From positions 1 to 64,000 of the forward strand of contig CAJPKC010000001.1 of NCBI GenBank assembly GCA_905370255.1: a stretch of 64,000 nt of DNA. Direction: 5' to 3'. Positions 16,597 to 38,346 of this stretch are shown here, piece by piece (positions within the stretch are counted from its first letter, which is position 1; every line of letters starts with the position of its first letter). Position numbers and translations under genes: made by a program. The notes beneath the pieces are model-generated. The model saw nothing but the letters and a program-made list of their open reading frames with translations, had not been told where the DNA came from and ran no database searches. The stretch comes from Streptococcus oralis. GTDB taxonomy: Bacteria; Bacillota; Bacilli; Lactobacillales; Streptococcaceae.

Positions 16597-16623
16597 AAAG
16601 CATACTGTTGAGTATGCTTTTTT
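16595..16623. terminator. Bidirectional terminator between 15730 and thyA
   Basis: AAAAAGCATACT-GTTG-AGTATGCTTTTTTT; A and T runs on both sides serve both convergent genes. Confidence 0.9.
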
Positions 16624-17474
16624 TAAATCGCCAAATCAAACTTCAATTGAGGTTTGACTGGATTGTAATCTTCTAACACGAAGTCTTCATGTCGAATATC
16701 GAAGAAATTAGTTCCATCTGGTACGTTCAAGACTAAGCGCGGTTGGCAATTTGACGGTTCTCGACGTAACAACTCATCCGCCTGTTCGAACTGATTGTCA
16801 TAGATGTGCAAATTATTGATGTAGTAGAAGAACTTTCCAACCTTCCAGCCAAAGTGCTTGGCAATCATCATCTGAAGAGCTACATATTGCATGGCGTTGA
16901 TGTGATGAGCGACGAGCATGTCATTTGAGCGTTGCGTTAGGGTGGCATCTAAATAGATTTCACCGTCGACGCGCCGTACATCAAACATGGTTTGAAAAGC
17001 ACAAGGTAAGAGTCCTTCGCTCTCTTCAAAGGATTGGTAGTCCCATAGAGAAATGATATTACGACGATTCCAGGGATTGGCTTCTAGTTGTTTGAGAATC
17101 TTGTTGATGACGTCGTGCTTTTTAACGACAGCACCATACCGCTCTCCAATCGTTCCCGTATCTCCTACTTCCCAGTCATTCCAGTAATGAACTTGGTACT
17201 TGTCGTTTAGGAGTTCCAGACTGTTGGACTGGTCCTGGTAGATCCAGAGCATCTCCTTGATGGCTGACTTGATGGCAATAGGACGAAGAGTCGTAATAGG
17301 GAACTCGCCCTTGGCCAGATCAAACTCCATAAAAACCCCAGTGATGTACTTGGAATTGGCAGTTGTGCCATCCTTGTACTTAGGCCGAGCCCGCTCTGAC
17401 CAAACGCCGTCTTCCATGATTTTCCTAATATACGTTTTAAAAATTGTATCTGCTTTTGTCATATATTTACTCAT
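16623..17474 (-). CDS. thyA: Thymidylate synthase
   Basis: 283 aa, complete. Catalytic Cys158 in LLPCAFQ, folate/dUMP motifs QRSNDMLVAHHINAMQYVA and NNLHIYDNQ. Converts dUMP to dTMP using methylene-tetrahydrofolate. Very close in sequence pattern to streptococcal chromosomal ThyA (WNDWEVGDTGTIGERYG) and richer in G/C-ending codons than its neighbours, suggesting relatively recent acquisition. The ATG at 17474 has no normal RBS; the upstream sequence is a type I-C CRISPR repeat. ATG 17462 (MTKADT) is an alternative start matching usual ThyA. A diverged 14-codon thyA segment lies upstream at 17524-17574 as a spacer-like sequence. Confidence 0.97.
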   Translation of the reverse strand: MSKYMTKADTIFKTYIRKIMEDGVWSERARPKYKDGTTANSKYITGVFMEFDLAKGEFPITTLRPIAIKSAIKEMLWIYQDQSNSLELLNDKYQVHYWNDWEVGDTGTIGERYGAVVKKHDVINKILKQLEANPWNRRNIISLWDYQSFEESEGLLPCAFQTMFDVRRVDGEIYLDATLTQRSNDMLVAHHINAMQYVALQMMIAKHFGWKVGKFFYYINNLHIYDNQFEQADELLRREPSNCQPRLVLNVPDGTNFFDIRHEDFVLEDYNPVKPQLKFDLAI

Positions 17475-17478
17475 TTCT

Positions 17479-17510
17479 ATTTCGATCCACGCACCCGTAA
17501 GGGTGCAATA
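17479..17510 (-). CRISPR. Type I-C repeat (unit 1, R2) directly upstream of thyA
   Basis: Minus-strand TTGCACCC-TTAC-GGGTGCG-TGGATCGAAAT: stem and 11-nt 3' handle of the type I-C repeat. The would-be spacer after it is the thyA start codon region itself, so cleavage by Cas5c here would process thyA mRNA. Confidence 0.75.
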
Positions 17511-17574
17511 AAGCGTTGTTGCGCCAAAGAGAGATAATATTATAATATTGCGACGATTCCATGGGTTGTCTTCT
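17511..17574 (-). CRISPR. Unit 1 spacer-like segment matching thyA
   Basis: 64 nt between two type I-C repeats. 17524-17574 reads E-D-N-P-W-N-R-R-N-I... and aligns to thyA codons 131-144 (17043-17085). There are 7 differences in 43 nt, six of them synonymous third positions, plus an internal 8-nt tandem duplication (AATATTAT). It is not copied from the adjacent thyA but from a related one, most likely chromosomal. Confidence 0.75.
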
Positions 17575-17712
17575 TTTCGATCCGCGCAGACAGCATTCCG
17601 CTGAATGCGGCGACTTAAAGCTAAGCCGCGAGGCGTATCGCAGTTCGCGTCTACGATTACCTCAAAGCGTTATCAGAAACTGATAACTAGACCCGATTTT
17701 CGCGAAAGGTCT
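17575..17712 (-). ncRNA. Structured RNA unit 1 with type I-C repeat handle
   Basis: Starts about 9 nt after the stop of gene 17721. Hairpins: P1 AGACC/GGTCT, P2 GTTATCAG/CTGATAAC, P3 ATCGTAG/CTGCGAT (extended by GAGG/CCTC), P4 GCGGCTTA/TAAGTCGC, P5 GCATTC/GAATGC, then CGCGGATCGAAA. P1, P2, P3 and P4 differ from the other copies by compensating changes. No promoter of its own is visible; probably co-transcribed with 17721. Confidence 0.8.
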
Positions 17713-37273: not shown

Positions 37274-37275
37274 GA

Positions 37276-37998
37276 TTACCCCCAAGATTTGTAGATTTTA
37301 TATTCTTGATCGACGGGCTTGATTTTTGTGCTCGGTTCGCGATATTTAAAACCATTGATCTTATTTGAGATTTCGCAGTCGTTTTTCGATTTGAATGTGA
37401 CGATTCCGTTTTTCATAACAGTGTTCGTGTAGTGTGCGACAAGAGGCATGCTCTTGTTTTTCGGATAAGAATACGAATGGAAGATAATTCCGAAGTCGAT
37501 GGTTTCGTTATCGAAGTAGGTTTCGGCGTTGTCGTATTCGTCTTGTGAGATTGCTTCGATATAGCCAACACACTCACGAGTTCCTAAGAAGCTGTCACGA
37601 CGACCACCTAATTCGAGGGATCGTTTCATGATTTCTTCGTGTTTGAGGCGTTTGCGATCGTCTGTGAGGTCTCCGCGGTTGAAGTCCCATTCGAAGTGGA
37701 ATTTAATGAGATATTCCACGTCACTCAAATAAGAAATGTAATTCAAGTCTGCTTTGTAGTTACTTAGAAGAGCACGGACGCCGTGCACTTCTGTTTGAAT
37801 GGGGTTGATGACTTTAACTTCGTCTACGACATTCGTAAACGTAGGTTTTCGATAGACGTTATCGACGATTCCCTCTAAGGCTTGCTTAGTGGGAATGGGA
37901 TAACTGTATTTTTCACCACCACCTTTAGTGATGGGGTTTGTGAAAAGCGCACGGTCACCTGTGATCCGCGCGTAAAAGAATTTCGATTGTTTGGGCAT
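37276..37998 (-). CDS. cas5c: Cas5c (Cas5d), crRNA-processing subunit
   Basis: 240 aa from ATG 37998, 7-8 nt after AAAGGAGG; the frame extends upstream into the CRISPR array and is not used. N-terminal FFYARITGDRALFTNPITKGGGEKYSYPIPTKQALEGIVDNVYRKP and the central GGRRDSFLGTRECVGYI are Cas5c hallmarks. In type I-C this subunit is also the endoribonuclease that cuts repeats and stays on the 5' handle. First cas gene, directly after the last repeat (38013-38048), so its mRNA leader contains its own enzyme's substrate. Confidence 0.94.
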   Translation of the reverse strand: MPKQSKFFYARITGDRALFTNPITKGGGEKYSYPIPTKQALEGIVDNVYRKPTFTNVVDEVKVINPIQTEVHGVRALLSNYKADLNYISYLSDVEYLIKFHFEWDFNRGDLTDDRKRLKHEEIMKRSLELGGRRDSFLGTRECVGYIEAISQDEYDNAETYFDNETIDFGIIFHSYSYPKNKSMPLVAHYTNTVMKNGIVTFKSKNDCEISNKINGFKYREPSTKIKPVDQEYKIYKSWG

Positions 37999-38012
37999 GA
38001 AGCCCTCCTTTC

Positions 38013-38216
38013 GTTGTGATCCATGCACCTCTATAAGGGAGGTGCGACATTTGTTCTCAGTCCATGGCAAGATATTTCAATCCGCGCACGTTCTGTGACG
38101 TGCGATATTCTTTCTGTAATGTATTTTGCTTACTATTCGGCATTTCGATCCACGCACCTTTGTGAGAGGTGCGATAATATATTTTGTTTGATGTTCAAGT
38201 TTGGTTCCTTGTACTT
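38013..38216 (-). CRISPR. Type I-C array of unit 4 (R2-R4 and spacers)
   Basis: Read leftward after the unit 4 RNA: S1 38175-38216 (42 nt), R2 38142-38174, S2 38107-38141 (35 nt), R3 38074-38106 (GGATTGAAAT handle), S3 38049-38073 (25 nt), R4 38013-38048 (handle degenerate, TGGATCACAAC). Each repeat has a complementary GC stem with different bases (GCACCTC/GAGGTGC-like, GCACGT/ACGTGC). Repeats are not identical, so structure rather than sequence is conserved. The array is in the leader of cas5c. Confidence 0.85.
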
Positions 38217-38346
38217 ATTTCGATCCGCGCAGACGGCATTCCGCCGAATGCGGCAACTTAGAAGCCTAAGTCGCGAGGCGTATCACGATTTCGCGTTCGT
38301 GATTACCTCAATTTGCCGTTAGGCAAGACTAGTTCGCGAAAAGTCT
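38217..38346 (-). ncRNA. Structured RNA unit 4 with type I-C repeat handle
   Basis: P1 AGACT/AGTCT, P2 TTGCC/GGCAA, P3 ATCACGA/TCGTGAT, P4 GCGACTTAG/CTAAGTTGC, P5 GCATTC/GAATGC, then GCGCGGATCGAAAT. P3 differs at several base pairs from the other copies but remains fully paired. It begins immediately after the TAA of gene 38347, whose final codons (TAC AAA CTT TAA) match the shared entry sequence of the units. Confidence 0.85.

Follow-up and report, generated by a model that had tools for sequence, protein, structure and literature searches.

A type I-C Cascade operon without a visible cas3 and dispersed CRISPR guides resembling neighbouring genes on a putative streptococcal mobile element: a possible system for conflict between sister elements

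We analysed a 64,000-nucleotide (nt) stretch of a Streptococcus oralis assembly (contig CAJPKC010000001.1, positions 1 to 64,000; the window), and identified on its minus strand a type I-C operon of cas5c, cas8c and cas7c, together with four units that each join a leader to a repeat of the clustered regularly interspaced short palindromic repeats (CRISPR) type and are followed by guides (Table 1). The products of the operon match TIGR01876, TIGR01863 and TIGR02589, all above the NCBIfam cut-offs, so that the set qualifies as I-C Cascade. Cas5c has a K-H pair that is invariant across an 8-sequence alignment, which we take to be the residues that cut pre-CRISPR RNA (pre-crRNA). Cas8c is 96% identical to P0001 (a cluster of 663 sequences) and 59% to P0003 (a cluster of 403), and about 48% identical to the chromosomal Streptococcus copies. 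No Cas3 or Cas1 family was matched by Pfam in the 20 window open reading frames (ORFs) of at least 300 amino acids (aa), which agrees with the first-pass annotation of this DNA, where an effector that binds but cannot cut had been proposed; a cas3 gene may lie outside the window. The Pfam scan covered 60 of the 71 window ORFs of at least 100 aa, leaving aside the other 11 and all shorter ones, so a gene of the size of cas2 or cas4 could have escaped it. Judging by its primase, TnpB and resolvase genes, the window is likely a piece of a mobile element, and its thyA and Cas homologues indicate that the element probably comes from streptococci. Megablast of positions 16500-39500 against phages and plasmids gave 0 matches, and for the TnpB stretch at 62300-63800 the matches, present in 11 of 284 Streptococcus genomes, were all short or distant. 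That the element could be one of the oral elements called 'Inocle' is a tentative lead only.

The four units are about 150 nt long, each leader ends in a CRISPR repeat, and the fold of the leader is conserved among them. The repeats carry a I-C handle, GGATCGAAAT in units 2-4 and GGATCGAAAA in unit 1, and eight of the nine window matches to the 3′ motif of the repeat (up to 3 mismatches) fall within the units or their arrays (shuffle mean 0.78). Although only four leader sequences are available, 99.3% of the pair cells in the common fold are paired (0 of 500 shuffles as good), and seven of the 37 pairs are altered on both sides (shuffle mean 2.8; reached in 1 of 500); the covariation score was likewise equalled in 0 of 500 shuffles, and further pair types occur in an unremarkable number (131 of 500). 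Folded singly, units 3 and 1 give z scores of -2.85 and -2.53. No Rfam family was found above its cut-off at the leaders, with only a chance-level match at unit 1. Short arrays with a leader on an apparently mobile element are what has been called mini-arrays, and the units fit that description; the repeats of the array before cas5 are degenerate. Directly upstream of this array, at 38347-39483 (minus strand), lies a gene for a protein that combines HTH_3, sigma-70 region 4 and RNA polymerase alpha C-terminal-like domains, a possible regulator of the array.

Seven guides follow the repeats in total, and three of them resemble the adjacent gene: thyA, the 3′ end of a vWA/solute-binding-like lipoprotein gene (vWA), and cas5, the last at the protein level only. 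Compared as protein with their two flanking genes, these guides were equalled by 0 of 500 (thyA), 4 of 500 (vWA) and 2 of 500 (cas5 guide, array spacer 1 or arr1) letter shuffles. The thyA guide reads EDNPWNRRNII and resembles the thyA gene directly downstream, with 27 of 35 nt identical, a level reached by 0 of 2000 letter shuffles compared with both flanking genes; a tandem duplication of 8 nt interrupts the likeness. The guide for vWA encodes KELLNAEL-stop, compared with KELFNAEF-stop at the end of its upstream neighbour, and agrees with the last 27 nt of that gene at 20 positions (2 of 2000 shuffles as good, against that gene); extended to 35 nt it is at chance (807 of 2000), because the likeness stops at the stop codon. 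The cas5 guide, KYKEPNLNIKQ, resembles KYREPSTKIK near the end of the downstream cas5. The first-pass annotation had tied guides to thyA, a hydrolase gene and a vWA/TelA operon; what it had noticed is largely real, in that the thyA and vWA links stand and the cas5 link is new, while one of its three gene links, that of the hydrolase, fails, and no guide of the window was found to match the TelA-family gene.

Table 1. Positions of the Cascade genes, leader-repeat units, guides and associated genes in the window.
Feature	Position	Strand	Remarks
thyA, own allele	16623-17474	-	guide site preceded by CTA; mismatches outside sixth positions at 5, 9
thyA guide	17513-17573	-	second repeat ends at 17479
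Leader + repeat unit 1	17564-17720	-	two 5′ hairpins differ in sequence from other units
Guide g2	20206-20172	-	after second repeat
Guide g1	20273-20235	-	after unit 2
Leader + repeat unit 2	20264-20416	-	followed by g1, second repeat, g2
vWA guide	22584-22610	-	own-copy mismatches at 3, 6, 9, 12, 21, 24, 27
Leader + repeat unit 3	22601-22753	-	
vWA/solute-binding-like lipoprotein gene	22762-24420	-	own allele beside guide
TelA-family gene	25372-26541	-	near vWA gene
cas7c/Csd2	34549-35379	-	NCBIfam profile
cas8c/Csd1	35360-37285	-	641 aa; NCBIfam profile
cas5c	37276-37998	-	ORF opens upstream at 38070; ATG at 37998 preceded by AAAGGAGGG
Array spacer 3 (arr3)	38047-38073	-	no target found
Array spacer 2	38107-38141	-	no target found
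Array spacer 1 (arr1)	38182-38216	-	reads KYKEPNLNIKQ in codon frame
Leader + repeat unit 4	38207-38359	-	array leader before cas5

The thyA, vWA and cas5 guides all keep the codon frame when read from their first base, which puts a wobble base at every sixth position. In Class 1 complexes every sixth guide base is flipped out (PMC11127173). The codons that precede the three sites encode Leu (thyA), Leu (vWA) and Phe (cas5), all of which can spell YTC, and Leu and Phe together make up 12.6% of the codons in 14 window genes. The element's own alleles have CTA, CTG and TTT at these places, none of them YTC, and mismatch their guides outside the sixth positions too, including in the seed (thyA 5; vWA 3; cas5 3, 7 and 8); the full sets extend to 3, 9, 21 and 27 in vWA and to 3, 7, 8, 9 and more in cas5. 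The proposal that the element's own copies are spared thus held up. In-frame guides placed after a Leu, Leu or Phe codon would fit true targets that have CTC or TTC there as the protospacer-adjacent motif (PAM). Sixth positions also hold residue-changing differences (vWA, F/L at 12; thyA, D/E at 6). The every-sixth pattern was rejected as proof of tolerance, being confounded by the coincidence of sixth with wobble positions; it is suggestive only.

The candidate targets include genes of sister elements. The best match of the cas5 guide is the sister Cas5 P0242 (91% identity; 633 sequences), which reads FRYKEPNLKIK and scores 45, with a K/N residue change at sixth position 24; the four unassigned guides reach best scores of only 21-25 against the same six sister proteins. 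In two other sister Cas5 proteins, P0241 and P0246, the N terminus is extended, apparently by read-through of a similar array, and one spacer read from the P0246 array fits the window cas7 at 34829-34863 (plus strand) at 25 of 30 informative bases. Elsewhere this spacer reached at best 23 in 139 loci (599,753 bases, both strands), and it agreed with five located chromosomal cas7 sites at 19-22 of 30; a further P0246 stretch beside the last repeat was left out of the sister-spacer comparison. Against 12 I-C loci of the genome_contigs set, the cas5 guide and the other array spacers were at chance. An apparent match of array spacer 3 to the cas5 ORF was discarded as an artefact, since that ORF starts inside the spacer. 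A search for sister DNA with five masked guide patterns gave 0 matches each, and viral contigs held no relative of Cas7 or vWA; a short leader motif was found in ten viral contigs, with no nearby repeat handle in the nine examined.

For thyA, candidate targets were found on streptococcal chromosomes. The element's thyA is 88-89% identical to Streptococcus copies (three genomes searched). A CTC PAM followed by a 27-nt fit with no mismatch outside the sixth positions occurs in 2 of 284 Streptococcus genomes (G192 and G124), whose thyA genes differ from the guide at position 6 and, outside the 27 nt of the search, at position 28; hence a candidate chromosomal thyA target exists, and targeting of the host gene is possible. 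Urease, a marker of the salivarius group, exceeded its cut-off in none of 10 genomes, so G192 and G124 probably lie outside that group. With YTC and the 27-nt pattern, 55 of the 284 genomes have a site with up to 2 mismatches, mostly counting one in the PAM. When the sixth positions are masked, a thyA site with up to 3 mismatches is present in 214 of the 284, as expected for a conserved gene; among the genomes listed, G194 and G231 have no mismatch outside the sixth positions, but they are flanked by CTG and TTG, not YTC. A stricter pattern found a site in 1 genome out of 177. Of 68 Streptococcus thyA loci compared, some sharing a genome, L036 is the most similar to the copy on the element (87.6% nt identity); it has CTG at the PAM, mismatches at 5 and 9, and the same guide-site 32-mer as the element, and that lineage is thus predicted to be spared.

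The other genes gave no such host targets. No vWA homologue was found at E ≤ 1e-60 in the 284 Streptococcus genomes, nor in 98 genomes of the order at 1e-60 or in four at 1e-10 (overlapping sets), all searches made with no positive control; plasmid tblastn returned six distant records, none from Streptococcus. The motif LFNAE is present in 50 of 51 vWA homologues among those listed. With sixth positions masked, the vWA guide had no Streptococcus site with fewer than 3 mismatches; 3-mismatch sites occur in four genomes, and the one checked runs past the stop, within another protein. The two guides g1 and g2, which had been assigned to the hydrolase, are at chance against their flanking genes (46 of 500 and 277 of 500 shuffles as good), and no target was found for them in 30 chromosomal hydrolase homologues drawn from 55 genomes that have the gene (four phage homologues left out). 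Beside g2, at 20078-20206 (minus strand), a 42-codon open stretch directly follows the CRISPR repeat, in frame with the first base of g2, and ends at the start of the next ORF; it is possibly a gene remnant, and a search of phages found no convincing relative of it (best E 2).

We consider it an evenly balanced prediction that the guides bind other alleles of thyA, vWA and cas5, and silence them in sister elements entering the cell. The units would be transcribed and processed by Cas5, every sixth guide position would be tolerated, and Cascade would block transcription at the bound allele, with rival elements in the same cell as the main targets; engineered Cas3-less type I-C Cascade does repress genes (PMC10865793). 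A block near the end of cas5 would still affect cas8c and cas7 behind it, and in the presence of a Cas3 from the host or a rival, silencing would turn into cutting. A guide that sits beside an immune allele could travel with it by recombination, as in marker exclusion. In its full form, which we offer tentatively and regard as rather unlikely, the proposal is a natural marker exclusion by CRISPR, in which these are selfish cassettes, each composed of a CRISPR RNA (crRNA) and an immune allele of the gene it attacks, sharing one nuclease-free Cascade, which disarm the thyA, lipoprotein and Cascade genes of rivals and spread by recombination.

Several results weigh against this proposal. At the DNA level the cas5 guide agrees with the window's own cas5 at 19 of 35 nt, which is at chance (1800 of 2000 shuffles as good), and the own cas5 site is preceded by TTT, which acts as a PAM in the I-C system of Neisseria lactamica (PMC10865793). 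P0242 has Arg where the guide reads Lys, in the seed; at the cas7 site, TTC stands one base out of the strict register; and in the window the remaining sister spacers compared (A and B from P0241, D from P0246) are at chance. The cross-matches involve two sister lineages, P0242 and P0246, rather than one mutual pair, and the sister fits were made at the protein level (cas5 guide) or by back-translation (cas7). Four of the seven guides (g1, g2 and array spacers 2 and 3) are without a target found, the fit of the thyA guide, PAM included, to the two genomes named above favours a host target for this guide, and the empty vWA searches of Streptococcus lacked a positive control, with one vWA homologue, P0145, named from Streptococcus panodentis and the longest contig of its cluster 700 kb long. 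Both the vWA and the cas5 site are close to the end of their gene, a weak place for silencing it. Promoter-like sites were not detected around the cas5 array or, on the minus strand, in the 200 nt that precede each of units 1-3, so the units may be read from upstream genes.

The first-pass annotation had instead proposed that the element silences host genes and replaces them with its own versions, making the cell dependent on it. In this form chromosomal thyA, and perhaps other genes, would be silenced while the element's copy works. thyA is indeed a chromosomal housekeeping gene with sites of the kind described above, and the element's own copy is spared at the PAM and at positions 5 and 9; an analogy is offered by TldR, which regulates flagellin alongside the phage's own flagellin isoform (PMC13418256). 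The suppression of host genes could, however, be retained for thyA alone: vWA was not found in the 284 genomes by the uncontrolled search, the cas5 guide resembles the Cas5 of a sister element, the hydrolase guides are unmatched, and L036, the Streptococcus thyA closest to that of the element, would escape. The cleave-and-rescue variant of the idea would require a Cas3, none being seen in the window ORFs of at least 300 aa. We regard host replacement as unlikely; going by the sequence comparisons, conflict between sister elements appears to explain more and is our best reading.

It is quite improbable, in our view, that the units are the fossil of an old array, with self-derived or borrowed fragments lying functionless beside genes that have since diverged. 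The degenerate array repeats, the 8-nt duplication in the thyA spacer, the run of g2 into a gene-like stretch and the four guides without a target would all suit such decay, but the leader fold is kept through compensatory changes, cas5, cas8c and cas7 are intact with close Cas8c and Cas5 clusters of 663 and 633 sequences, and there are thyA alleles that the thyA guide continues to fit across 27 nt. Self-regulation, in which partial pairing would tune the element's own genes in the manner of CreA, has the appeal that every identified guide adjoins the gene it resembles. Partial pairing is said to suffice for repression by CreA. CreA RNAs made from ectopic repeats guide Cascade to repress a toxin RNA, as the CreTA papers describe. 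Since the own sites are placed inside coding regions or at their ends rather than in promoters, and mismatch in the seed, we hold this explanation very improbable. We also considered that a mobile leader had inserted and duplicated the gene ends, and rejected this as a general account: the vWA unit could have arisen so, but not the cas5 unit, nor that of thyA, where the site is mid-gene and the gene lies downstream.

Several other genes of the window deserve mention. After cas7 and in the same direction, an RNase HIII-like gene and a small, weakly M78-like gene occupy 32920-34483 (minus strand); the RNase HIII-like product has an N-terminal extension and falls below the NCBIfam cut-off, and an enzyme of RNA-DNA hybrids beside a Cascade is curious. 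At 45409-51833 (minus strand) there are Wadjet-like anti-plasmid genes, JetD-like and a split JetC-like (overlapping ORFs at 46095-47909 and 47897-49555), then two genes without a Pfam match; the Wadjet-like genes (45409-49555) are in keeping with an element in competition with other DNA. A diverged TnpB-like gene at 41222-42775 (plus strand), with an IS605-orfB-I RNA directly behind it, is below the TnpB family cut-offs and thus may be derived or inactive. Two pairs of a MerR-resolvase and a TnpB gene (3069-5040 and 61781-63772, plus strand) appear IS607-like by their layout, and a Transposase-1 RNA comes after the pair at 61781. The region 55991-61746 (plus strand) includes a gene for a 1213-aa surface-type protein with four G5 stretches and MucBP, flanked by a CHAP protein and by a gene with a sortase match just below the cut-off.

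If sister-element conflict is the true explanation, pairs of a CRISPR guide and an immune allele would be a natural means of replacing alleles between elements and would parallel the guide-and-rescue designs that have been engineered; Cascades would also serve to silence the Cascades of rivals, and lone CRISPR units would have a structured leader RNA of a new kind. The Cas8c and Cas5 clusters of the element family already number hundreds of public sequences.

Among the titles listed from the open-licence literature we found none of exactly this design, which does not by itself establish its absence; several known systems share parts of it. In marker exclusion, free-standing homing endonucleases of phage T4 (Seg) reportedly act as an agent encoded beside a resistant allele of the target. 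The agent lies beside a resistant allele in both cases; here it would be an RNA guide, with no cutting enzyme seen. TldR is said to derive from TnpB and to silence a host flagellin gene. The effector genes considered here are I-C cas genes and not a TnpB-derived dead-nuclease effector; the two systems would share a nuclease-free RNA-guided repressor with a substitute gene spared by the guide (PMC13418256), but TldR acts on a host gene, whereas here the effector would be Cascade and one guide appears directed at a sister cas gene. CreTA (PMC9458426, PMC8501985) likewise has ectopic degenerate repeats, one guide and a type I Cascade; it differs in its toxin RNA target, while the guides here resemble the coding sequence of neighbouring genes, and a toxin RNA, looked for via Rfam only, was not identified. 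Solitary repeat units, or RNA anti-CRISPRs, are also lone CRISPR repeats on mobile elements (PMC10651486), but here gene-like guides follow the repeats and a Cascade operon is on the same element. The arrangement also recalls virus-borne mini-arrays such as those of SPV1 and SPV2, whose spacers are directed at relatives and in some viruses hit, in a relative and not in the carrier, the gene adjacent to the array (PMC6858448); few spacers, leaders, a mobile element and, by prediction, an aim at relatives are shared (also the review PMC11656645). Those mini-arrays come without cas genes, and the sister targets proposed here are, unlike theirs, deduced from proteins; what differs in the present element is the carried Cascade (Cas5-Cas8c-Cas7), the dispersed units and the structured leader.

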